DNA from: Rhodococcus yunnanensis NBRC 103083
GTDB lineage: Bacteria; Actinomycetota; Actinomycetes; Mycobacteriales; Mycobacteriaceae
Length of the DNA: 64,000 nt
Direction: 5' to 3'
NCBI RefSeq assembly: GCF_001895005.1
Contig: NZ_BCXH01000018.1
Span: 1 to 64,000, forward strand
Position 1 is the stretch's first letter; each line of letters opens with the position of its first letter. Made by a program: the position numbers and the translations under genes. Below are positions 7,688 to 17,708 of this stretch, in pieces. The notes under the pieces were generated by a model that was not told where the DNA came from, did no database searches, and saw only the letters and a program-made list of their open reading frames with translations.

Positions 7688-9313
7688 ATGTCGGGCATGA
7701 CGATCGCGCTGCGCCCAGCGTCGTTCACCGCCGGGACTCTCACGCTGCTGGGTGCATTGTATTTTGCCCAAGGACTGCCCTTCGGGTTCTTCACTCAGGC
7801 ACTGCCGGTGGTTCTGCGTGAGTCGGGATACTCGTTGGTGCAGATCAGCGCAACCGGGGTTCTGTTTCTCCCGTGGGCTCTGAAATTTCTGTGGGCGCCC
7901 TACGTCGATCGCTACGGGACGCGGCGGCGATGGTTGCTCGGCTTGCAGTGCGGGGCTGCCGCGGTGGCCCTCGGATTGTCCGCGCTCGATCTGTCCTCGA
8001 CACTTCGCTGGTTGTTCGTCGGCATCTTCGTCGTCAATGTGTTCTCCGCGACGCAGGATATCGCTACCGACGGCATCGCCGTGCGGCTGCTGACGCCTCG
8101 ACTGCTCGGGCCGGGTAACGGAATTCAGGTCGGCGCCTACCGAATCGGAATGGTGTGTGGCGGCGGGCTTCTGCTGTGGTTCTTCACGTTCGCGGGGTGG
8201 CGAGCGCTGTTCGTCGCGATGGCGGCCCTGCTGTTGCTGACGACTCTTCCGGTGCTGCTGATGCGTGATCAGTTGAACGCCGCGGACGATGGACGTGGCG
8301 GCGGTGAAGGTGGCGGTGATGGACGTGGCGGCGAGCCGGATTCGCCTGTGCGCCTTGCGCTCGGCTGGTGGTCTCGGCTGCGTCGCCCCGGGATTGTCAC
8401 GCTGATTCTGCTGATAGCCGGTTTCAAGTTCGGTAACTCGATGGGCTCAGCGCTCGTCGGCCCCTTCATGTCCGACGAGGGCCTGACTCTGAGCCAGATC
8501 GCGTTGGTGGAAGGCGGTGTGTCCTCGGTTTCTGCACTCGGGGGAGCGGCACTGGGCGCATGGCTTTCTTTCCGATTCGGCCGAATGCGAGCGCTGCTCT
8601 TCGGCGGCATCAGTCAAACCCTCAGTCTCGGTTTGTACTTGGTGGCCTCGTTCGGAATAGGCGGCTTTCCGCTACTGGTGACGGCAACGGTGACCGAGCA
8701 CGTCCTCGGCGGCGCGGCAACAGTTGCGGTGTTTGCGCTGATGATGGATGCCGCCGAGAAACGTTTCGCCGGAGCAGATTACACGTTGCTCGCGTGCGCA
8801 GTAGTTTTTGCGCAGGGTGCCGCGGGCATCACCGCAGGGATTGTCGGAGACCTCTTCGGATACTCGGTGATGTTCGGCTCAGCGCTTGTTCTATCCGGCA
8901 TCGGGTGTGCAGTGTTGGTGATCGCACTCGGCCGCGGTGCGGGTCCGAAAAGTTTGAAGGAACCCGTGTTGCCGAGTGCGGCAAGAGCTGGTCAGCGACT
9001 GATCGGAACCAATCGACTCGGCGTTGCGTCTAAATCTACGACGGACGGCGACGGGGGGATCGGGTGCGGAAGTGGGTACCTGCATGTGTGGCCGCGATCG
9101 CCCTGCTCAGCGGGTGTGCCGACGGTGTGGAGCCTCATGCCGTCGGTGAGCCGACCAGATGGGATCCGTGCAGCATCACGCCAGAGGCAATCGGGGCGAC
9201 CGGGTTGGACCCTGGTTACCGAGACGAAGGGTGGGGCGATGGCATCGTCGTACCGGATTGGGCGATTTGTTCGTTCAAGTCGCCAGGCGTCGATATTGCC
9301 TACTTTTTCGTAG
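7688..9313 (+). CDS. MFS transporter of AmpG/SLC33-like type with run-on C-terminus
   Basis: About 430 residues carry 12 membrane segments of the AmpG/acetyl-CoA-transporter branch of the MFS: ALYFAQGLPFGFFTQALPVV at the start, then PWALKFLWAPYVDRYGTRRRW (the loop 2-3 motif). A Gly/Arg-rich cytoplasmic loop lies near residue 200. After about residue 440 the frame runs out of membrane sequence and continues through the beginning of the next gene in another frame to a stop at 9313. That tail is probably an artefact of the native 3' end being lost where the lipoprotein array begins near 9004. The gene follows tetR in one operon. Confidence 0.8.
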   Translation: MSGMTIALRPASFTAGTLTLLGALYFAQGLPFGFFTQALPVVLRESGYSLVQISATGVLFLPWALKFLWAPYVDRYGTRRRWLLGLQCGAAAVALGLSALDLSSTLRWLFVGIFVVNVFSATQDIATDGIAVRLLTPRLLGPGNGIQVGAYRIGMVCGGGLLLWFFTFAGWRALFVAMAALLLLTTLPVLLMRDQLNAADDGRGGGEGGGDGRGGEPDSPVRLALGWWSRLRRPGIVTLILLIAGFKFGNSMGSALVGPFMSDEGLTLSQIALVEGGVSSVSALGGAALGAWLSFRFGRMRALLFGGISQTLSLGLYLVASFGIGGFPLLVTATVTEHVLGGAATVAVFALMMDAAEKRFAGADYTLLACAVVFAQGAAGITAGIVGDLFGYSVMFGSALVLSGIGCAVLVIALGRGAGPKSLKEPVLPSAARAGQRLIGTNRLGVASKSTTDGDGGIGCGSGYLHVWPRSPCSAGVPTVWSLMPSVSRPDGIRAASRQRQSGRPGWTLVTETKGGAMASSYRIGRFVRSSRQASILPTFS

Positions 9314-9579
9314 TGATGTCATCGGTCACCCACACTGTCGAAGACCTCCGCCGAGACACGTCGAATATCAATGGACGGGATCTCGACCTGGACGGCCGCG
9401 ATCTGTTTCTGTACGAGACAGAGGCGACGAGGTCGATCGACGACTGTAACATCGCAGTCGGTCTTGCACGCGGCATCGCTGTATTCACGGTCAACTATAT
9501 GAATGTCGGCGATGGCGTCGATCCTTGCGAACTGGTGCTCGGGCACCTCGCCGACCTCGAATTCGCCTTGCCCCAGTGA
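9064..9579 (+). CDS. Array unit 1: DUF3558-like lipoprotein
   Basis: The protein has 171 residues with a GTG start six bases after GGGGGG. The signal peptide ends in LLSGC (Cys18). The mature part begins with the conserved TRWDPCSITPEAIGATGLDP segment typical of DUF3558 lipoproteins of Nocardia, Rhodococcus and mycobacteria. Cys residues near 36, 71 and later in the chain suggest a disulfide-bonded extracytoplasmic domain. Residues 1-66 are shared almost exactly with units 2-4; the remainder differs. The partner gene begins 15 bases downstream. Its 5' end overlaps the run-on of the MFS frame. Function is unknown. Confidence 0.85.
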   Translation: MRKWVPACVAAIALLSGCADGVEPHAVGEPTRWDPCSITPEAIGATGLDPGYRDEGWGDGIVVPDWAICSFKSPGVDIAYFFVVMSSVTHTVEDLRRDTSNINGRDLDLDGRDLFLYETEATRSIDDCNIAVGLARGIAVFTVNYMNVGDGVDPCELVLGHLADLEFALPQ

Positions 9580-9594
9580 GATTTGGAGATAATA

Positions 9595-9975
9595 GTGACC
9601 AACTTTGGCGAACCGCTCACGTACTGGCAGTCTTTGTCGTTGGCAGTGGACCATGGCGACTTGTACCTCGACGCGACCGTGGCGCAGGCGTGCAGTACCG
9701 CATGCGACGAGTACCTAGTCAAACTGCGCGCTCACCAATCCGCGGCGAAAATGTTGGGCCGCGTCACGGGTCTTGGTGAGTTCGACTCCGGCAAGGATCT
9801 GCGACGAATATTCTCCGAGAAGGCCGTTGGCGGTGAGAACAACCTGGTCGACGTGTTGCAGAGCCACATCGACGTCGTCGAGAAGATGAAGATCGTCTTT
9901 CAGAAGCTCATCGTGGACACCGAGGGTCAGGATCGCGAGAACGCCGTTGGTCTTGGCCTCGCGGGGCCGAAGTGA
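9595..9975 (+). CDS. Array unit 1: small helical partner protein
   Basis: The protein has 126 residues, no signal peptide and no membrane segment, and is predicted almost all helical. It has a GTG start after TTGGAG. A motif near the N-terminus (EPLTYWQSLSLAVDHGDLYL) is followed by a CxxxC pair (ACSTACDEY) and a second half (GLGEFDSGKDLRRIF to the end) that is nearly identical in units 1-3. The size and central W recall WXG100-type partners, but no WxG turn or YxxxD/E export signal is seen, so that link is only a guess. I do not recognise the family. Confidence 0.75.
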   Translation: MTNFGEPLTYWQSLSLAVDHGDLYLDATVAQACSTACDEYLVKLRAHQSAAKMLGRVTGLGEFDSGKDLRRIFSEKAVGGENNLVDVLQSHIDVVEKMKIVFQKLIVDTEGQDRENAVGLGLAGPK

Positions 9976-10360
9976 ACTGCGTGCCCGCTGGGCTGAATTG
10001 CATCGCGGTTGTGTGGTGAGGACGTCCCGCGGTTCGTCGGCCTAGGTTCTCGGCGCCTTCAGTGACTTCGCGAGATCGTTGTCGATTTCAGGGCAGGAGA
10101 CGGAACCAGCCGCGTTGCCTGTGCGTCTAAGTTGACGACGGACGGCGACGAGGGGGATCGGGTGCGGAAGTGGGTACCTGCATGTGTGGCCGTGGTCGCC
10201 CTGCTCAGCGGATGTGGCGACGGTGTGGAGCCTCATGCCGTCGGTGAGCCGACCAGATGGGATCCGTGCAGCATCACGCCAGAGGCAATCGGGGCGACCG
10301 GGTTGGACCCTGGTTACCGAGACGAAGGGTGGGGCGATGGCATCGTCGTACCGGATTGGG
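9775..10360 (+). repeat. 586-bp direct repeat, copy R1
   Basis: The repeat runs from the 3' half of one partner gene, through the intergenic segment, into the 5' half of the next lipoprotein gene. Copies at 10873-11458 and 11975-12560 have exactly the same length and differ by only a few single bases. A partial, more worn copy of its second half starts near 9004 at the end of the MFS gene. Homologous recombination between copies would swap whole variable modules. Confidence 0.9.
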
Positions 10361-10674
10361 CGATTTGTTCGTTCAAGTCGCCAGGCGTCGATATTTCTTA
10401 CTTCCTCGTTGTGAAGTCGTCGTCGACTCATACGATCGAAGAAGCTCGTCAGGACCCGTTGAACGTTTCGGGACGTGGTTTCGTCTTGGACGGTCGTGAC
10501 GCGTTCCAGTTCGAGACCGAGATCGCGAGATCGATCGACGACTGCAATGTCGCTGTCGGCCTGCCACACGGCGTCGCGGTCTTCACGGTGAACTACATGG
10601 ATGTCGGCGATGGTGTCGATCCTTGTGGACTCCTGCTTGGACACCTCGCCGATCTCAAATCTGCTTTGCCTTGA
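10162..10674 (+). CDS. Array unit 2: DUF3558-like lipoprotein
   Basis: The protein has 170 residues with a GTG start after GAGGGGG. The signal ends in LLSGC, and residues 1-66 match units 1, 3 and 4 almost exactly. The variable part (from AICSFKSPGVDISYFLV) is closest to unit 1, sharing the RSIDDCN, VAVFTVNYM and GDGVDPC segments. It should be lipid-anchored outside the membrane. It is followed by its own partner gene 18 bases downstream. Confidence 0.85.
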   Translation: MRKWVPACVAVVALLSGCGDGVEPHAVGEPTRWDPCSITPEAIGATGLDPGYRDEGWGDGIVVPDWAICSFKSPGVDISYFLVVKSSSTHTIEEARQDPLNVSGRGFVLDGRDAFQFETEIARSIDDCNVAVGLPHGVAVFTVNYMDVGDGVDPCGLLLGHLADLKSALP

Positions 10675-10692
10675 TGAAGTTGGGAGCTCGTG

Positions 10693-11073
10693 ATGGCTGA
10701 CCCTGGCGAACCGCTCACGTACTGGCAGTCGCTCGCACTCGCAGTGGACGAGGGAAACTTGTATCTCGATTCGGCTGTTGCGCGTGCGTGCAGTAATGCT
10801 TGCGATGTCTACCTCGCAAAACTCGAGGTGCACAGGTCCAAAGCCAAGGAGTTAGCCAACGTAAGAGGCCTCGGTGAGTTCGACTCCGGCAAGGACCTGC
10901 GACGAATATTCTCCGAGAAGGCCGTTGGCGGTGAGAACAACCTGGTCGACGTGTTGCAGAGCCACATCGACGTCGTCGAGAAGATGAAGATCGTCTTTCA
11001 GAAGCTCATCGTGGACACCGAGGGTCAGGATCGCGAGAACGCTGCTGGTCTTGGCCTCGCGGGGCCGAAGTGA
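10693..11073 (+). CDS. Array unit 2: small helical partner protein
   Basis: The protein has 126 residues, the same length as the other intact partners. ATG at 10693 is preceded by GTG at 10690 and by GGGAGCTC. Residues 1-58 differ from the other units but keep the EPLTYWQSLALAVDEGNLYL block and the ACSNACDVY Cys pair. From GLGEFDSGKDL to the end it is nearly identical to units 1 and 3. It is cytosolic by prediction, or exported by an unrecognised route. Its strict pairing with the lipoprotein gene suggests the two products interact. Confidence 0.75.
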   Translation: MADPGEPLTYWQSLALAVDEGNLYLDSAVARACSNACDVYLAKLEVHRSKAKELANVRGLGEFDSGKDLRRIFSEKAVGGENNLVDVLQSHIDVVEKMKIVFQKLIVDTEGQDRENAAGLGLAGPK

Positions 11074-11458
11074 ACTGCGTGCCCGCTGGGCTGAATTGCA
11101 TCGCGGTTGTGTGGTGAGGACGTCCCGCGGTTCGTCGGCCTAGGTTCTCGGCGCCTTCAGTGACGTCGCGAGATCGTTGTCGATTTCAGGGCAGGAGACG
11201 GAACCAGCCGCGTTGCCTGTGCGTCTAAGTTGACGACGGACGGCGACGAGGGGGATCGGGTGCGGAAGTGGGTACCTGCATGTGTGGCCGTGGTCGCCCT
11301 GCTCAGCGGATGTGGCGACGGTGTGGAGCCTCATGCCGTCGGTGAGCCGACCAGATGGGATCCGTGCAGCATCACGCCAGAGGCAATCGGGGCGACCGGG
11401 TTGGACCCTGGTTACCGAGACGAAGGGTGGGGCGATGGCATCGTCGTACCGGATTGGG
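10873..11458 (+). repeat. 586-bp direct repeat, copy R2
   Basis: This is the second copy of the partner-3'/intergenic/lipoprotein-5' repeat, 1098 bases after R1. Differences from R1 are single bases, for example in the ALGLAGPK-coding 3' end of the partner gene and in the spacer (CTTCGCG against CGTCGCG). Confidence 0.9.
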
Positions 11459-11784
11459 CGATTTGTTCGTTCCGAATTTCTGGTGTCGATATCCCGTACG
11501 TTCTCGTTGTGAAGTCGTCGCTGACCCACACTGTGGGCGAAGCTCGCGCAGACACACGGAATATCGATGGACGCGACATTGCACTCGGTGACCACGGCGC
11601 GTTCGAGTACAAACTTCATGTCGGGAAGACCGGCCGGTCTTGTGAAATCGCGGTAGACGTACCACCTGGAATCGTGGTGTTCTCGGTGATCGATATGGAC
11701 CGTCTGACGGACGACAGACTGTGCGGGCTGGTCGAGCAACATGCGCATGATCTACAGGATTCACTACCAAATGCAATGAAGTAG
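11260..11784 (+). CDS. Array unit 3: DUF3558-like lipoprotein
   Basis: The protein has 174 residues with a GTG start. The constant region 1-66 includes the LLSGC lipobox and TRWDPCSITPEAIGATGLDP. The variable region (from AICSFRISGVDIPYVLV) is of the same type as unit 4, with GKTGRSCEIAV and VVFSVIDMD, rather than units 1 and 2. The array therefore carries at least two variable-region lineages behind one constant leader. The partner gene starts 10 bases downstream. Confidence 0.85.
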   Translation: MRKWVPACVAVVALLSGCGDGVEPHAVGEPTRWDPCSITPEAIGATGLDPGYRDEGWGDGIVVPDWAICSFRISGVDIPYVLVVKSSLTHTVGEARADTRNIDGRDIALGDHGAFEYKLHVGKTGRSCEIAVDVPPGIVVFSVIDMDRLTDDRLCGLVEQHAHDLQDSLPNAMK

Positions 11785-11794
11785 GAGGTCTGTG

Positions 11795-12175
11795 GTGAGT
11801 ACCGATGGTGAACCAGTCACGTATTGGCAATCGCTGGCCTTCGCGGTGGATCAGGGTGACCTGTATCTGAATCCTGCAGCTGCACAAGCATGTAGCGATG
11901 CGTGCAGTGACTACATCTCGAAGTTGATCGAGCATCGCACGAACGCTTACGTTTTGGCCGACGTCACAGGCCTCGGTGAGTTCGACTCCGGCAAGGATCT
12001 GCGACGAATATTCTCCGAGAAGGCTGTTGGCGGTGAGAACAACCTGGTCGACGTGTTGCAGAGCCACATCGACGTCGTCGAGAAGATGAAGATCGTCTTT
12101 CGGAAGCTCATCGTGGACACCGAGGGTCAGGATCGCGAGAACGCTGCTGGTCTTGGCCTCGCGGGGCCGAAGTGA
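11795..12175 (+). CDS. Array unit 3: small helical partner protein
   Basis: The protein has 126 residues. Two consecutive GTG codons (11792, 11795) follow GTAGGAGG; the second gives the length shared by the other partners. The N-terminal half reads EPVTYWQSLAFAVDQGDLYLN, then PAAAQACSDACSDYISKL. The C-terminal half is the shared GLGEFDSGKDL block. DNA from the middle of this gene also survives in the broken unit 4 partner, showing that units 3 and 4 are the closest pair. Confidence 0.75.
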   Translation: MSTDGEPVTYWQSLAFAVDQGDLYLNPAAAQACSDACSDYISKLIEHRTNAYVLADVTGLGEFDSGKDLRRIFSEKAVGGENNLVDVLQSHIDVVEKMKIVFRKLIVDTEGQDRENAAGLGLAGPK

Positions 12176-12560
12176 ACTGCGTGCCCGCTGGGCTGAATTG
12201 CATCGCGGTTGTGTGGTGAGGACGTCCCGCGGTTCGTCGGCCTAGGTTCTCGGCGCCTTCAGTGACGTCGCGAGATCGTTGTCGATTTCAGGGCAGGAGA
12301 CGGAACCAGCCGCGTTGCCTGTGCGTCTAAGTTGACGACGGACGGCGGCGAGGGGGATCGGGTGCGGAAGTGGGTACCTGCATGTGTGGCCGTGGTCGCC
12401 CTGCTCAGCGGGTGTGGCGACGGTGTGGAGCCTCATGCCGTCGGTGAGCCGACCAGATGGGATCCGTGCAGCATCACGCCAGAGGCAATCGGGGCGACCG
12501 GGTTGGACCCTGGTTACCGAGACGAAGGGTGGGGCGATGGCATCGTCGTACCGGATTGGG
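11975..12560 (+). repeat. 586-bp direct repeat, copy R3
   Basis: This is the third copy of the repeat, 1102 bases after R2. It ends in the unit 4 lipoprotein gene at the same codon (PDW) as the other copies, after which the coding sequence diverges abruptly. Confidence 0.9.
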
Positions 12561-12883
12561 GTCGCTGTTCCTTCAAACCTCCTGGGTTGGATGTCAAGTA
12601 CTTCCTCAGTGTCGAGGTGTCGCTTTCTCACACTCTCGCAGAAACTCGTGCAGATCAGTCGAGGATCGATGGACAGGACATCACAATCGGGGATCGCGAC
12701 GCGTTCGAGTACAAGACTCGTGTTGGGAAGACGGGCCGGACCTGCGACATTGCCGTTGAGGTAGAACCGGGTGTCGTGGTGTTCTCGGTGATCGATATGG
12801 ATGACCTGGCGGACGCAGAATTGTGTGAAATGGTTCTGCGGCACACCCAGGATCTAGAAGACTCGCTGCCAGCACCAGTCTGA
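12362..12883 (+). CDS. Array unit 4: DUF3558-like lipoprotein
   Basis: The protein has 173 residues with a GTG start after GAGGGGG. It has the same constant leader and N-terminal domain as units 1-3, then a variable region (GRCSFKPPGLDVKYFLSVEV) related to that of unit 3 through FEYKTRVGKTGRTCDIAV and VVFSVIDMDDLADAELC. The gene is intact, but its partner has been destroyed: partner-derived sequence begins one base before this gene's stop codon. If the lipoprotein needs a partner it must borrow one from another unit. Confidence 0.82.
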   Translation: MRKWVPACVAVVALLSGCGDGVEPHAVGEPTRWDPCSITPEAIGATGLDPGYRDEGWGDGIVVPDWGRCSFKPPGLDVKYFLSVEVSLSHTLAETRADQSRIDGQDITIGDRDAFEYKTRVGKTGRTCDIAVEVEPGVVVFSVIDMDDLADAELCEMVLRHTQDLEDSLPAPV

Positions 12884-12996
12884 ATCCTGCAGCCGCACAA
12901 GAGTGTAGCGACGCGTGCAGCAATTACATCCTGAAGTTGCATGGACGCCGTCCCATCGAGGGCGGTACAGGCAAGGCTCTTTGGGCAATCAGCTGA
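12880..12996 (+). pseudogene. Array unit 4: truncated partner gene
   Basis: A 38-codon frame overlapping the lipoprotein stop reads LNPAAAQECSDACSNYILKL, closely matching the middle of the unit 3 partner in both protein and DNA. It then runs into GTGKALWAIS, reminiscent of the SGKALREIFS block, and stops. The start, RBS and first 24 or so codons are deleted, as is most of the C-terminal half. Confidence 0.75.
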
Positions 12997-13321
12997 AGCC
13001 GGCTGCTTCGGTTCGACAATGAAGAACGGCTTGCAGGTTCCCGAAATGTCCGGCTGGCGCCTCGGTCTGTTCGTGATTGTTCTCGGTGATCGGTTGAGTA
13101 TCCGACTTTGAACAACTTTGCTTATCTCGCCGCCAATTCGAATTATTCGAGCGGTACAAGGCGAATCGTACGTAGGCGGCACCGGCCGACCAACGCTTGC
13201 GTGTGGTGCCGTCAGGATTGCCGCCGCATAGAGCGAGAGGGGAGATGGATCGAACTCCGGTCATTAGGTCACGGCAGTTCGTTGGAACGCTGATGCGCAT
13301 TCAATGATGTATTGCCAGTAA
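12997..13321. other. Gene-free stretch between the two subfamilies of the array
   Basis: These 325 bases hold short open frames on both strands, but none has an RBS, a recognisable domain or coding-like third-position bias. The stretch contains locally AT-richer sequence than its surroundings (for example around 13128-13150). It separates units 1-4 from units 5-6 and is probably decayed DNA. Confidence 0.5.
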
Positions 13322-13606
13322 TTCCCCAGAATATCCGAGGATGTCATCGCGCATGTCCCTACCGAAGTCTCGTCAGCCCGTCGTCAGCGCACCGATGACA
13401 TCGGACGGGCTGCGGCCCTGTGGCTCGGCGGCGTCGAGTCGTCAGTGGCGACGGCTGTACTGGACGCAGCGACCGTGGGGCGTTCGGTGATCCTGGTGGA
13501 GATCTACCGCAGTGGGAGTGGGCGGCGTTTCCGTGCGGTCGGGCAAGGCTACGACGACGGTTGGGCGGAGCTGGCAGAGCGCTACGGCGTCGAGGTCGAC
13601 GAATAG
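13322..13606 (+). pseudogene. C-terminal fragment of a TerD-domain protein, copy 1
   Basis: A 94-codon frame without a start codon runs from an upstream TAA to TAG. Its second half (VILVEIYRSGSGRRFRAVGQ, then GYDDGWAELAERYGVEVDE) matches the end of TerD/TerZ stress proteins, whose usual ending is ELYRxxGxWKFRAVGQGY, then GLAxLAxxFGV. The calcium-binding N-terminal part is missing. It lies upstream of the unit 5 lipoprotein and is repeated 1049 bases later. Confidence 0.65.
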
Positions 13607-13855
13607 TCAGGCGATCTGGGGAACCGGATCGTACTCTGGTGCGTCCAATCCATCGAAGGACGCTACCGAGGGGGATGTGTGCGCACGAGTGTGACGGTTG
13701 TGATCGTCGGTACCGCTCTTCTCGGAGGGTGCAGCGGATCAGGCGACGAGATCGGAGTCGCAACACCTGCACCACCACGATGGGACCCCTGCAGCATCAG
13801 TGCCGAGGCAATCGAGGCGACGGGCCTCGATCCCACGTACAGGCAAATTGGTTGG
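13400..13855 (+). repeat. 456-bp direct repeat, copy 1
   Basis: The repeat spans the TerD fragment, a short spacer and the first 59 codons of the unit 5 lipoprotein gene. It recurs at 14449-14904 with the same length and a handful of base changes. Like the 586-bp repeat, it ends inside the lipoprotein gene where the constant part turns variable. Confidence 0.88.
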
Positions 13856-14212
13856 GGTGAAGGCATCACAGTTCCCGATTGGTCGTTGTGCATCTTCCGT
13901 GGGCCCGATGCGAAACCGTCGTACTTTCTCAACGTCAAGTCCTCCGATATACATACGATCGAGGATGCTCGCGAAAATCAATCCAATCTCGCAGCCGTCG
14001 AATTGCAGGTCGGCGGCCGAAATGCGTACCAGTTCAACACCGCCAAGTCTCGGTCCATCACGGACTGCAACGTCGCCGTGAGTGCGGCATCGGGAGTGGT
14101 TGTCTTCACGGTGAACTCCATGGGAACCGATGCGATAGCCGGGGATCCATGCGACATCGTGATCTCGCATACAGCGGATCTGGTTCTTCTGTTACCACCG
14201 GTCGAGAAGTAA
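13679..14212 (+). CDS. Array unit 5: DUF3558-like lipoprotein, second subfamily
   Basis: The protein has 177 residues with a GTG start after GAGGGGG. The signal peptide ends in LLGGC (Cys18). The mature start PRWDPCSISAEAIEATGLDP is clearly homologous to units 1-4, but leader and linker differ, so units 5 and 6 form a second subfamily. The variable part (from GEGITVPDWSLCIFRGPDA) keeps the DCNVAVS, VVVFTVNSM and DPCDIV segments. The downstream partner gene is broken. Confidence 0.82.
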   Translation: MRTSVTVVIVGTALLGGCSGSGDEIGVATPAPPRWDPCSISAEAIEATGLDPTYRQIGWGEGITVPDWSLCIFRGPDAKPSYFLNVKSSDIHTIEDARENQSNLAAVELQVGGRNAYQFNTAKSRSITDCNVAVSAASGVVVFTVNSMGTDAIAGDPCDIVISHTADLVLLLPPVEK

Positions 14213-14224
14213 GGAATCCACTTC

Positions 14225-14394
14225 ATGTCCGATTCTGAGAGCTCGATCGGTTACTGGCAGGCTCTCGCGCTTGCTGCAGACCAGGGCTGATTTTTTTTCG
14301 AGCCTGGCGCAGCGGCTGCTTGTATCCAAGCGTGTGAGCAGTTCGTCGCCGGACCGTTGGTTCATCAAACACGCGCGCAGGAGCTCACCGATGT
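14225..14394 (+). pseudogene. Array unit 5: partner gene with nonsense codon and lost 3' half
   Basis: ATG at 14225 starts a frame reading SIGYWQALALAADQG that hits TGA at 14288 just before a run of eight T. In the same frame the homology continues (FFFEPGAAAACIQACEQFVA, on to LTDVNG). At that point the sequence switches to a piece of the acyl-CoA dehydrogenase gene end. The conserved C-terminal half is absent, so no functional product is expected. Confidence 0.75.
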
Positions 14395-14448
14395 GAACGG
14401 ACGAGCCTTCAGAAGAACGCGCCGTCCCGGCGGTGCCTCCCCGCTGAT
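14395..14448. repeat. Displaced copy of the acyl-CoA dehydrogenase gene 3' end
   Basis: About 54 bases match 15675-15727 (the last codons and downstream flank of the minus-strand dehydrogenase gene) with four or so changes, including a one-base indel. Here the piece sits between the broken unit 5 partner and the second 456-bp repeat. It marks a recombination junction. Confidence 0.75.
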
Positions 14449-14655
14449 ATCGGACGGGCTGCGGCCCTGTGGCTCGGCGGCGTCGAGTCGTCAGTGGCGA
14501 CGGCTGTACTGGACGCAGCGACCGTGGGGCGTTCGGTGATCCTGGTGGAGATCTACCGCAGGGGGAGTGGGCGGCGTTTCCGCGCGGTCGGGCAAGGTTA
14601 CGACGACGGTTTGGTGGAGCTGGCAGAGCGCTACGGCGTCGAGGTCGACGAATAG
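14449..14655 (+). pseudogene. C-terminal fragment of a TerD-domain protein, copy 2
   Basis: This is a shorter duplicate of the TerD fragment, from IGRAAALWLGGVE to GVEVDE and TAG. Like the first copy it lacks an N-terminal domain and a start codon, and it is carried passively inside the 456-bp repeat. Confidence 0.6.
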
Positions 14656-14904
14656 TCAGGCGATCCGGGGAACCGGATCGTACTCTGGTGCGTCCAATCC
14701 ATCGAAGGACGCTACCGAGGGGGATGTGTGCGCACGAGTGTGGCGGTCGTGATCGTCGGTACCGCTCTTCTCGGAGGGTGCAGCGGATCAGGCGACGAGA
14801 TCGGAGTCGCAACACCTGCACCACCACGATGGGACCCCTGCAGCATCAGTGCCGAGGCAATCGAGGCGACGGGCCTCGATCCCACGTACCGGCAAATTGG
14901 TTGG
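14449..14904 (+). repeat. 456-bp direct repeat, copy 2
   Basis: This is the second copy of the TerD-fragment/lipoprotein-5' repeat, offset by exactly 1049 bases from the first at both ends. It carries small substitutions such as a TGG to TTG change in the TerD part. Confidence 0.88.
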
Positions 14905-15261
14905 CCGTCGGGGATCGTGGTCGATGATTGGTCTCTGTGCAAATTTCGAGCGACGCCGGAGGATCAGTCCTACTTTTTGAATGTCCTGTCGTCGGACGTG
15001 CACACTCTGGCGACGCTTCGACAGGACGACTCCAACCTGCACGCAGTCGATTCGACGATCGGAGGGCGTGATGCGTATCAATACGAAACCAGCGTCTCGC
15101 GGGCGGTAACAGACTGCAATGTTGCAACCGAGGTCACGGGCGGCATTGTTGTCTTCACCGTCGATTTTGTGGGAGGGACCGACCCCGCCTCGGATCCGTG
15201 CGAGTTGGCGCAGGCCCACGCAATCGACTTGGAGCCGCTGCTACCACCATCCGAGAGGTAG
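14728..15261 (+). CDS. Array unit 6: DUF3558-like lipoprotein, second subfamily
   Basis: The protein has 177 residues with a GTG start and a lipobox LLGGC. Residues 1-59 are almost identical to unit 5; the rest diverges (PSGIVVDDWSLCKFRATPED and on) while keeping the paired Cys positions (SLC, DCN, DPC). It is the last unit, is followed eight bases later by an intact partner, and is probably the functional member of this subfamily. Confidence 0.85.
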   Translation: MRTSVAVVIVGTALLGGCSGSGDEIGVATPAPPRWDPCSISAEAIEATGLDPTYRQIGWPSGIVVDDWSLCKFRATPEDQSYFLNVLSSDVHTLATLRQDDSNLHAVDSTIGGRDAYQYETSVSRAVTDCNVATEVTGGIVVFTVDFVGGTDPASDPCELAQAHAIDLEPLLPPSER

Positions 15262-15269
15262 GAGAGACG

Positions 15270-15650
15270 ATGAGCGAGCCCGAGAATCCGACGACATATT
15301 GGCAGTCACTTGCGCAGGCCGCCGACCAAGGGCATTTGTTCTTGAACTCCGAAGCTGCCGCAGCGTGCAGTCGTGCTTGCGACACCTACATCGACAAGCT
15401 CATCGCCCATCAGGACGCGGCCAAACTGTTGACTACCGCGAACGGCCTCGGCGAGTTCGAGTCCGGCAAGGCTCTTCGGGAGATTTTCTCGGCCAAAGCT
15501 GCTGGAGGTCCGAACAACCTTGTCGACGTGCTGCAGAGCCGCATCGATGTGGTCCGGAAGATGCAGGTCGTGTTCGACAAGTTCTTCGAGACGACAGTGG
15601 CCGACGACCAGGAGAATGCTGCGGCAATTGGACAGAATGGGCCGAACTAG
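15270..15650 (+). CDS. Array unit 6: small helical partner protein
   Basis: The protein has 126 residues with ATG after GTAGGAGAG. It contains TTYWQSLAQAADQGHLFLN, the ACSRACDTYIDKL Cys pair, and the C-terminal half GLGEFESGKALREIFSAKAA, then NNLVDVLQSRIDVV. This half is clearly homologous to units 1-3 but no longer identical, showing which residues are kept by selection rather than by recent recombination. No signal peptide or membrane segment is seen. The family is unrecognised. Confidence 0.78.
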   Translation: MSEPENPTTYWQSLAQAADQGHLFLNSEAAAACSRACDTYIDKLIAHQDAAKLLTTANGLGEFESGKALREIFSAKAAGGPNNLVDVLQSRIDVVRKMQVVFDKFFETTVADDQENAAAIGQNGPN

Positions 15651-15663
15651 GCGCCCCCGAGGT

Positions 15664-15679
15664 CGTTCGGCGGCGAACG
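15664..15679. terminator. Weak hairpin between convergent genes
   Basis: CGTTCG and CGAACG pair around a GCGG loop in the gap between the array's last gene and the dehydrogenase gene that reads toward it. There is no T-run, so intrinsic termination is uncertain. Confidence 0.3.
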
Positions 15680-15688
15680 GACGAGCCT

Positions 15689-16912
15689 TCAGAAGAACGC
15701 GCCGTTCGGCAGTGCCTCCCCGCTGATCTCGTAGGCGCCGATGGCCTTGGCCTTGTACGTCCGCGGGTTGTGTGCGGCCAGGGTGCGGATGTTGCGCCAG
15801 TGCCGATCGAGGTGAGAGCTCTGCCGGGCCGCAGTACCGCCTCCGACGTCGAAGAGATCACTTGCCGCCTTCAACGCGATCTCGTCGACGACTACCTTTG
15901 CCTTCGCCGCACGTAGCGCGGCGCGCTGCGACAGCTCGAGCTCTCGGTCGGTGCCGTGCGCGGCGTAGGCGTCGGCCAATGCATCTGCGGCATGCAGGAC
16001 CAGAGCCTCGGCCGCGTACGCCTGGCTGGCGAGCAGTCCGACCGATTGTTGCAGAATCGGATCCTCCACCGGCGATTCCGACGCAGCGTGGTAGAACGTG
16101 CGCTGTTTGGTTCGGACCAGTTCGGCGGCATCGCGGGTGACGCGCCGCAGAATTCCGGCGATCACGGCCGTGAGGTAGAGCTGCGGAAATGTTGCAGCAT
16201 AGGAGGTCTCGCCGTAGGCGCCAGTGCCGAAGAACTCCGGGAGCTCGACCGCCACATTGTCGAACCGGGTTGTGCCACTTCCGGTGAAGCGTTGACCGAT
16301 GCCGTCCCAGTCGTGCTCGATGGACACCCCGTCGCGGTCCGCGGGAACGATGACGCGGACCGATCCGCTGCCGGGCCCCTGCGCTCGCACGAGTAGGAAG
16401 TCCGCATACAGATTCCCGGTGCTGTAGAACTTGGTTCCGTTCAAACGCAAACCCTCGGGACCGTCGGTGATCGCTGTCTCGTACGGCTGGTCACGGCCAC
16501 CGGCGAACGCGCGGTTCAGTTCGGTCGACGCCAATCCGAACAGCTGCCCGGCCTCGATATGCGCAAACCACTGCTCGTCGGCGTCGATGTGTCGCTTCAG
16601 CAGTGTCTCGACAAAGCTGAAATGGTTCCGAAGACTGTGCGCGACATTGGGATCCACCTCCCCGATGTCGATGACTACCTCGAACAGCTCGGTCAGGGTT
16701 GCCCCACCGCCCCTTCCGCCGGGCAGCCGTAGCGCACCGAGGCGTGAGCTCCGCACAGCCTCGAACTCCTGAAACGGATGCCGGTGTGCGTCGTCCCGGT
16801 CGATCACCCCGGCATCGATATGCGCGAGAAGCGCTGCCAATTCGGGTGATCCAGCAGAGACAGGGCCATCGAAGCTCGAATCGATCCCGGCGCCGGGCAG
16901 AAGTGCAGTCAT
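15689..16912 (-). CDS. Acyl-CoA dehydrogenase-fold flavoprotein, DszC/SfnB-like
   Basis: The protein has 407 residues. ATG at 16912 follows GGAG. It has the acyl-CoA dehydrogenase layout: an N-terminal helical domain, a central beta domain (LNGTKFYSTGNLYADFLLVRAQ, a typical substrate-lid strand pattern) and a C-terminal helical domain with DLFDVGGGTAARQSSHLDRHWRNIRTL. The last motif is typical of the DszC/SfnB/flavin-dependent monooxygenase branch rather than beta-oxidation dehydrogenases. With the nearby LLM monooxygenase and SDR it may oxidise a sulfur- or nitrogen-containing compound. It is the second gene after the SDR. A copy of its 3' end is found in the lipoprotein array. Confidence 0.78.
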   Translation of the reverse strand: MTALLPGAGIDSSFDGPVSAGSPELAALLAHIDAGVIDRDDAHRHPFQEFEAVRSSRLGALRLPGGRGGGATLTELFEVVIDIGEVDPNVAHSLRNHFSFVETLLKRHIDADEQWFAHIEAGQLFGLASTELNRAFAGGRDQPYETAITDGPEGLRLNGTKFYSTGNLYADFLLVRAQGPGSGSVRVIVPADRDGVSIEHDWDGIGQRFTGSGTTRFDNVAVELPEFFGTGAYGETSYAATFPQLYLTAVIAGILRRVTRDAAELVRTKQRTFYHAASESPVEDPILQQSVGLLASQAYAAEALVLHAADALADAYAAHGTDRELELSQRAALRAAKAKVVVDEIALKAASDLFDVGGGTAARQSSHLDRHWRNIRTLAAHNPRTYKAKAIGAYEISGEALPNGAFF

Positions 16913-16949
16913 GCGACAAGCTCCTTGGCTCGCGTGCGAAAGGTAGTGG

Positions 16950-17708
16950 TCAGTAGTAGATCGAGTCGGGCACGCCGCCGCCTGCGAAGATCCCGTCACC
17001 GGTGATCGCCACACTGCGAGGTGACGCCAGGAATGCGACGACCCACGCCACCTCCTCGGGTTCGATGACCCGCCCCAGGATGTTCGACGGCGTGACGTCG
17101 CCGCGCTTCTCGAGCTCGATGTAGCGCTCGGTGCGCGTCGGGCCGGGATTGACGACGGTGACGTTGATGCCGTGTGGGCCGAGCTCGTCGGCGATGTTCT
17201 TGGTCAGTGCCGTGACCGACGCATTGCGTACCGAACCGATGACCGATGCCGTCCGACGCGATGCGGTGCCACCGATGTTGACGATGCGTCCCCACTTGTT
17301 CTCGATGAGATGCGGTGCAACCGCCCGGATGGTGCGTAGATATCCGATGACCTTGACGTTGATCTGCCGCTGGAACCAGTCGTCGTCGGCGTCGAGATAA
17401 CTGGATCCGTGCTGTGCCGGTTGCTCGGCTGCGTTGTTGACGAGAATGTCGATGCCACCGAACTCCGCCACCACCCGTTCGACGAGCGACTGCACGGATG
17501 CGTCGTCCCCGGTGTCGGCGGTGACGGCGAGGACCTTGCTACCGGAGTCCGCGGAGATGCGCTCGGCCGCGGCCTCGAGCACGTCCTGTCGACGCGATGT
17601 GATGGCAACGGATACGCCGTTGCGCGCGAGCTCCAGTGCGATCGCGTAGCCGATACCCGTGCCACCACCGGTGACGATCGCGCGCTTGCCGTCCAGTTCG
17701 AGAGTCAT
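16950..17708 (-). CDS. Short-chain dehydrogenase/reductase lacking the YxxxK pair
   Basis: The protein has 252 residues of classical SDR length. TGGGTGIG (about 12-19) binds NAD(P), NNAA (about 91-94) is the structural motif, and PGPTRT is the cofactor loop. In the active-site helix the usual Tyr-x3-Lys is replaced: the run before TALTKNIADEL reads GSVRN, putting Gly and Asn at those positions. Catalysis must differ from standard SDRs, or the protein is not a reductase. It is first in an operon with the DszC-like flavoprotein and divergent from the LLM monooxygenase. Confidence 0.8.
   Translation of the reverse strand: MTLELDGKRAIVTGGGTGIGYAIALELARNGVSVAITSRRQDVLEAAAERISADSGSKVLAVTADTGDDASVQSLVERVVAEFGGIDILVNNAAEQPAQHGSSYLDADDDWFQRQINVKVIGYLRTIRAVAPHLIENKWGRIVNIGGTASRRTASVIGSVRNASVTALTKNIADELGPHGINVTVVNPGPTRTERYIELEKRGDVTPSNILGRVIEPEEVAWVVAFLASPRSVAITGDGIFAGGGVPDSIYY

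Follow-up and report, generated by a model that had tools for sequence, protein, structure and literature searches.

We analysed a stretch of 64,000 nucleotides from Rhodococcus yunnanensis NBRC 103083 (GCF_001895005.1, NZ_BCXH01000018.1, positions 1 to 64,000 of the forward strand; hereafter the window, on contig C18), which is part of a draft genome of 6.37 Mb in 67 contigs. The window carries a tandem array of six units, W1 to W6, each consisting of a gene for a DUF3558 lipoprotein (LPP) and of a gene for a helical protein of 126 residues (the partner), or of what is left of the latter. A preliminary description of this DNA had recognised six DUF3558-like lipoprotein genes in a row, and they are indeed all intact and assigned to PF12079; they lie within 9064-15261, and each has a GTG start and a lipobox-type cysteine at position 18. 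It is also correct that a partner or its remains follows each LPP gene: four partners are intact, all with 126 amino acids, and begin 15 (W1), 18 (W2), 10 (W3) and 8 (W6) bases after the LPP stop, and two are remnants. The proposed period of 1.05-1.1 kb holds for four of the five LPP start-to-start distances (from W1 to W6: 1098, 1098, 1102, 1317 and 1049), but not for the step from W4 to W5. The array is not a product of chance, since the repeat families D1-D5 of the window reach 300 bases. What had been missed is that only the ends of the units are repeated, while their middle is strongly diverged. The features are the following, all on the + strand.

9064-9579: W1 LPP, 171 amino acids (PF12079, 48.5 bits)
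9595-9975: W1 partner, intact, 126 amino acids (the open reading frame list has an earlier TTG at 9583)
10162-10674: W2 LPP, 170 amino acids (PF12079 precomputed, P0128; structure model m0280856c3732)
10693-11073: W2 partner, intact, 126 amino acids (structure model ma9d0a043faab)
11260-11784: W3 LPP, 174 amino acids (PF12079, 42.1 bits)
11795-12175: W3 partner, intact, 126 amino acids
12362-12883: W4 LPP, 173 amino acids, intact despite partner loss (PF12079, 44.0 bits)
12879-12966: W4 partner remnant, residues ~24-47 only, abutting the LPP stop (repeat family D9)
13679-14212: W5 LPP, 177 amino acids, intact despite its broken partner (PF12079, 57.0 bits)
14225-14404: W5 partner remnant, first ~59 residues, with one in-frame TGA and no tail
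14728-15261: W6 LPP, 177 amino acids (PF12079, 56.8 bits)
15270-15650: W6 partner, intact, 126 amino acids
9004-9273: W1 head arm, i.e., the spacer end plus about the first 70 LPP codons (repeat families D1, D4 and D7)
9274-9753: W1 diverged core, i.e., the LPP gene past codon ~70, the junction and most of the partner first half (borders approximate)
9754-10053: W1 tail arm, i.e., the partner second half plus the 3′ flank (repeat family D3)
13377-13676: repeated spacer 5′ of W5, with a 95% copy at 14426-14725, 5′ of W6 (repeat family D5)

A run of eight T is found in the W5 partner remnant at ~14290-14297, directly past its in-frame stop.

Each unit is a mosaic of two homogenised arms and a diverged core. 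W2-W4 are 98-100% identical from 210 bases 5′ of the LPP gene to about codon 60; from there to the end of the LPP gene, across the junction and as far as the middle of the partner gene, identity among W1-W4 drops to 40-90%, and W1-W3 are again 95-100% identical over the partner tail and the 3′ flank. Further copies of the head arm lie near 10101-10371, 11199-11469 and 12301-12571 (the W1 spacer end is 76-78% like the others), and those of the tail arm at 10852-11151 and 11954-12253 (96-97%). At silent sites, the divergence (pS) among W1-W4 is 0.00-0.06 in heads and tails versus 0.51-0.88 in the cores (0.55-0.88 for the W1 cores), while W5 and W6 differ by 0.15 in the head and by 0.68 in the core. 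The ratio of nonsynonymous to synonymous substitution rates (dN/dS) of the cores is 0.13-0.37 where dS is estimable, two comparisons giving no estimate. Judged by these divergences, the cores are old and constrained and the arms are recent. The heads of W5 and W6 share 89% protein identity; the identity of their cores is 0.50 to each other, and 0.66 and 0.59 to cores of other genomes. The same holds, among the matches listed, for 7 of the 16 LPPs of the source genome. The same arm/core pattern, with its own arms and less sharp, is displayed by a second array on contig C23.

The pattern is a general one. Among 27 neighbouring unit pairs from 20 arrays (with L105, a duplicate of L026, dropped and units with a broken partner left out), silent divergence is lower at the outer than at the inner end of the first gene in 25 pairs and of the second gene in all 27. 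The arms are less silently diverged than the core in 20 of 20 arrays (Wilcoxon p 1.9e-6), and plain DNA identity gives the pattern in 26 of 29 unit pairs when the duplicate L105 is kept. The array L075 (genome G172) has the reversed order, partner before LPP. There, 95-100% identity is seen over the first ~35 partner codons and the last third to half of the LPP gene, both genes being variable elsewhere. The homogenised part is set by position in the unit and not by protein domain, because this reversed array, the one on which the statement is based, keeps its variable core at the junction. A fixed specificity domain made of the C-terminal part of the LPP and the N-half of the partner is consequently not secure, since L075 is variable in the partner past residue ~35 and in the LPP over its first half to two thirds. 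Judged by this one array, variability in both layouts would be confined to roughly residues 60-100 of the LPP and 38-55 of the partner.

The two halves of the core, which belong to different genes, travel together. We compared 117 unique intact units from 35 of the 37 genomes of the genus (all but G028 and G029), taken from the part of the loci that was fetched. The LPP core is shared at 85% or more in 30 unit pairs, which form 16 groups, none of them inside one genome; the partner N-half reaches at least 85% in 23 of these pairs and 70-85% in the other 7, and is never below. In the reverse test, the LPP cores match in 32 of the 32 pairs that share the partner N-half (23 and 9). The partner N-half identity averages 0.90 in the core-sharing pairs; in a control with the remaining units from these genomes, the average is 0.50, and 70% or more is found in 15 of 186 comparisons. 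The arms follow a different rule: among 57 unit pairs with a common LPP head, the core is also shared in 11 and below 60% in 15, and among 179 with a common partner tail, these numbers are 20 and 43. These counts supersede an earlier partial correlation of 0.33 between core and partner half (0 of 1000 permutations). In the sample studied, they demonstrate at the sequence level that the variable region of an LPP is inherited and exchanged jointly with the variable half of the partner from the same unit, by recombination with breakpoints that fall within the one and the other gene rather than between them. DNA proximity does not explain this linkage, since the head and the core of one gene part while the cores of two genes stay linked.

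An example is given by L144_11854 and L137_11769, whose cores are 0.95 and 0.96 alike, whereas their heads are at 0.60 and their downstream genes differ. Both genomes hold two pairs ~4 kb apart, and the shared core occupies opposite places; it has thus moved between units. Residue covariation between LPP and partner (161 units, effective number 88) is 0.214 versus 0.205 in 20 within-cluster shuffles (standard deviation 0.002). A single residue pair rises above the null maximum, and the highest-ranking pairs seem to track clades; we therefore claim no interface.

Similar results were obtained at fixed chromosomal positions. Three positions, each defined by the same downstream gene, hold pairs in 11, 12 and 7 of the examined loci (groups A, B and C). 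Groups A and B have one pair per fetched stretch, while L123, L127, L137 and L144 of group C have two. At silent sites, the LPP cores (0.57-0.63) and the partner N-halves (0.57-0.69) have the highest mean divergence; LPP heads reach 0.36-0.48, partner tails 0.38-0.50 and the flanking gene 0.17-0.37. The mean of core and N-half is larger than the value of the flank, of the head and of the tail in 123 of the 142 comparisons (A 47/55, B 60/66, C 16/21). It falls below the flank in 7 comparisons, in which a near-identical core is set in more diverged flanks, as for L145 and L125 (core 0.11, N-half 0.06, flank 0.25). Two smaller groups of three loci each behave alike; one further group with a single usable member was dropped.

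The strict pairing noted in the window extends to other genomes, where the two genes are not regularly apart. Of 115 partners, 110 have an LPP gene upstream at a distance of at most 300 bases, in a sample from nine genera (the window, L009-L010, L013-L054 and L065-L084, some of which overlap); 2 of the 110 are L075 units whose upstream LPP belongs to the preceding unit. The five exceptions are due to the order partner-LPP (first unit of L075, L081 and L084), a contig edge (L022) and a fragment (L016). In a contig scan of the genomes, the LPP is directly upstream of the partner in 27 of 27 matched loci. Each of the 37 genomes of the genus has between two and thirteen partner matches (E 1e-5), with an LPP copy number that nearly parallels that of the partner; in the family, such matches occur in 74 of 151 genomes and 21 of 31 genera. 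Of 163 partner relatives found, the named organisms among the 120 listed are Rhodococcus, Rhodococcoides or Nocardiaceae.

In the source genome we count 16 LPPs of this type, all full length: besides the window array, seven are in the C23 array, the partners of which are full, damaged or missing, and three form a cluster on contig C7. Nine of the 16 have an intact partner: one on C7, four on C23, and those of W1, W2, W3 and W6. In the first C23 unit, the partner was counted as damaged, its start, middle and end being off-family (profile span 21-118); profile scoring takes it as full, which gives 10 of 16. A PF12079 search of the genome hit 17 places and missed W2 and W3, both recovered by the LPP profile. 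Two adjacent DUF3558 genes were also seen at each of C12:147595-148583 and C24:18367-19368; they look like a different DUF3558 type because these two contigs yielded no partner match. Two small PASTA-domain proteins adjoin the C23 array (L009:13216-14068).

Decay affects the two genes unequally. In a hand tally of 16 genomes of the genus with best partner match below E 1e-45, setting aside three LPPs cut by contig ends, an intact LPP stands beside a lost or broken partner in ten cases (seven in the source genome, two in G018 and one in G026). An intact partner lacks its LPP in one case (G029, L097), and both genes are lost or damaged at three loci (in G004, on contig C58 of G019 and in G035). 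Weighted by gene length, at least 10 partner losses out of 11 has a p of 0.0011; the source genome alone, with 7 of 7, gives p 0.0023.

As for the proteins, the PF12079 cut-off of 34.1 bits is exceeded by the five window LPPs scanned, and W2 was assigned through a precomputed table, matched by length and contig. Cys18 is invariant across 56 aligned LPPs together with four more cysteines; the lipobox was judged by eye and lipidation is predicted. The model of the W2 LPP has a compact PsbP/Mog1 fold resembling the immunity lipoprotein Tsi3 at 14-15% identity (PDB 4n80, 4n7s, 4luq and 3wa5). The W2 partner is modelled as a WXG100/PE-like helical hairpin of ~100 residues. Cysteines occupy partner positions 33 and 37, which are separated by one turn of the helix, in 100 and 109 of 111 sequences, and no signal peptide is seen by eye. 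Up to E 1, Pfam gives no match for any of the four intact partners of the window. Searched against Pfam and NCBIfam, none of 36 members of the partner family exceeds a curated cut-off and no family is assigned to the window member; the weak matches are to PE (E 3.9e-4, one member), EspC (0.012, one) and WXG100 (best 0.02, four), with unrelated families equally weak. Profile searches of the PDB gave no partner match up to E 10 and, for the LPP, weak unrelated matches only (best E 0.025). PADLOC and PHROGs returned no informative match for four window proteins, and of four LPPs compared with NCBIfam, three had weak matches only, in the signal region, and one had no match. The Pfam description of PF12079 states no function. 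Our literature search on DUF3558 and PF12079 found nothing relevant, the string DUF3558 occurring only in unrelated work, and none of the matches listed concerned the LPP-partner pair.

From the linkage and mosaic data, specific cognate pairing between each LPP and its own partner is very probable. The best single reading, which we hold with about even confidence, is that the units are cognate, polymorphic two-gene modules composed of an effector (the partner) and a lipoprotein that confers immunity. The two products would bind each other with allele-specific fit. The partner hairpin might be delivered outside the cell, originally via the single ESX/type VII system, and there might act at the envelope of neighbouring cells; the LPP, with its anchor on the outer side of the membrane, might neutralise the matching partner. 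Arrays would store immunity against several partner types, and LPPs with a decayed partner would represent orphan immunity genes. The conserved arms would serve homologous recombination that brings in new cores or shifts cores between units, so that the cognate pair would not be split. The earlier suggestion of a competition system or of ligand/receptor specificity is supported by the co-inheritance of the cores, by the LPPs kept past partner decay and, more weakly, by the Tsi3-like fold. Phase variation, which it also named, is unsupported and was dropped, as was hypermutation: the cores are old, strongly diverged at silent sites with the low dN/dS given above, and 8800-15900 yielded neither a long inverted repeat nor a slippage array (the longest inverted repeat has 32 bases at 72%, and the sole tandem repeat is two copies of 8 bases, with tools that leave out runs of one to three bases). 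In broader terms, the pair could tentatively be regarded as a self/non-self recognition system widespread in these actinobacteria, with a polymorphic, single-domain helical ligand or effector without recognised enzymatic domain, a PsbP-fold lipoprotein acceptor and one recombination module over two genes in either order. By analogy, such a system might possibly correspond, in bacteria, to linked ligand/receptor allorecognition loci.

The linkage and mosaic data call for specific pairing only, not for toxicity, and would also fit recognition without killing, with the partner as a secreted identity signal and the LPP as its receptor, in kin recognition or contact sensing; rare types would be favoured and arrays would widen the range of signals heard. 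The absence of a toxin domain in the Pfam and NCBIfam searches and the two almost invariant cysteines four residues apart agree with such a signal. However, loss of the partner with the LPP kept (10 versus 1) fits protection better than signalling, and the orphan LPPs of the arrays would be receptors lacking their own ligand, so that we consider this alternative rather unlikely.

Alternatively, the LPP could be an exposed surface protein that phages or predators target, with the partner helping in its folding or assembly; an exchange of cores would alter the surface and require a matching helper. Phage-driven diversifying selection would suit the arrays and the old cores shared across species at fixed loci, and PsbP/Mog1-like folds do include effector chaperones (EagT6, SciW). 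Yet loss of a helper should make the LPP useless, while all 16 LPPs of the source genome are intact in spite of 7 lost or damaged partners, and a core dN/dS of just 0.13-0.37 also speaks against this explanation, which is unlikely.

Plain concerted evolution, in which the ends of duplicates are homogenised by gene conversion since they are functionally constrained and the pairing carries no specificity, is already disfavoured and appears very unlikely. LPP heads and partner tails are better conserved also as proteins (identity 0.50 and 0.60 in the Rhodococcus set, versus 0.34 and 0.42 in the variable parts). But the effect is seen at silent sites, reverses with gene order in L075 and holds at single-pair loci (107 of 121 comparisons in the fetched stretches of groups A and B), and heads part from the core of their own gene while the cores of two genes do not. 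Finally, that the LPP is the toxin and the partner a cytoplasmic immunity protein, as for SitA/SitI of myxobacteria, is hardly probable: a multicopy lipoprotein with conserved head and variable end before a second variable gene, the lack of a visible signal peptide on the partner and a type VII system that need not be present (cf. G135) would suit it, but loss of immunity with the toxin kept should be lethal and is instead the commonest loss (10 versus 1), and the LPP models as a compact PsbP/Mog1 fold.

Returning to the effector-immunity reading, its type VII step receives a mixed answer. In its favour, the partner models as a hairpin of the WXG100/PE kind, the source genome has one EccB and one EccD, and EccB is present in 148 of the 151 family genomes. 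Of 60 distant partners, 48 have a recognisable form of the export motif YxxxD/E after their last helix, with Y or F and with D/E. Two observations weigh against this step: the motif is found in 0 of 51 partners of the window's clade, and genome G135 (L067, L107 and L108), with eight partner matches, yielded neither EccB nor EccD. All six G135 units fetched have an LPP and five have a full-length partner; either the type VII locus of this genome was lost or missed, or the pair is independent of type VII. Since the export tyrosine is absent in the window's clade and G135 shows no EccB/EccD, we do not class the partner as a type VII substrate, although it may work like one.

Also in favour of a type VII link, ESX-substrate-like neighbours occur at 8 of 86 genus loci. 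One set, in L010, L014, L017, L052, L098 and L128, consists of a ~94-amino acid weakly EspC-like gene and a 355-amino acid weakly WXG/PPE-like gene, both below cut-offs. The other (L051, L052 and L100) comprises an 849-amino acid EspA-like gene (PF23275, E 1.9e-46 in L015) and ~270-amino acid lipoproteins, with a 102-amino acid gene in two of the three. We dropped the idea that the pairs always head an ESX-substrate operon, as relatives of the five query genes are near only these 8 loci and the nearest downstream genes are, among the matches listed, mostly of other kinds. In L015:13636-19450 (= L100:8505-14319), past a pair, the 102-amino acid gene, the 849-amino acid EspA-like gene and three tandem related ~270-amino acid lipoproteins follow one another, and by its layout this set looks like a separate toxin and immunity array.

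Tandem type VII immunity genes of Firmicutes, esaG and tipC, form strings of non-identical paralogues with conserved blocks, through which recombination takes place; tipC is variable in its centre and carries a conserved block at either end, and its product has a probable lipoprotein signal (Garrett, 2022; PMC9484751). The present array resembles them in these features. It differs in that there the immunity genes are arrayed and the variable centre lies within one gene, while here whole pairs are arrayed and the centre spans the two-gene junction; moreover, our host is an actinobacterium and the unit has no large toxin gene. Furthermore, an array of the Firmicute type would be expected beside the type VII locus and its toxin, whereas here EccB lies on C19 and the arrays on C18, C23 and C7. 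Compared with the type VI pair Tse3/Tsi3, the LPP fold is Tsi3-like, but identity is low, and phylum and delivery differ; Tse3 is, by its structure title, a muramidase effector and the partner a small helical protein. Unlike the WXG100, PE and EspC substrates of type VII systems, the partner has no profile match above cut-off, the turn of the window proteins reads GLGEF and not WXG, the export residue is absent in the window's clade, and the pairing with a polymorphic lipoprotein is strict. SitA/SitI is likewise a cassette of a polymorphic lipoprotein and a neighbour gene, but there the lipoprotein is the toxin (PMC5562445), while the decay pattern here points to a protective lipoprotein, the second gene being usually lost.

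Thus, polymorphic pairs and immunity arrays are known from other bacteria, and our literature search returned no description of this family, host group or two-gene core. An actinobacterial cognate-pair system would extend the type VII antagonism with immunity-gene arrays described in Firmicutes. The arm/core layout offers a test for cognate pairing that requires sequences only: the cuts fall within the genes, the specificity link is spared and the pattern tracks the junction under reversed order. In addition, DUF3558 gains a testable function, for which natural matched and mismatched pairs are available.

The array is flanked by a presumed MFS-type gene (from 7688) on one side and by a presumed acyl-CoA-dehydrogenase-like gene (15689-17014, opposite strand) on the other. 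The spacers before W5 and W6 contain, at 13358-13603 and 14401-14652, a gene fragment that is presumed to be TerD-like and C-terminal. The DNA of these spacers has no third copy in the genome, and for this reason it hints that the W5/W6 part of the array perhaps derived from another locus.

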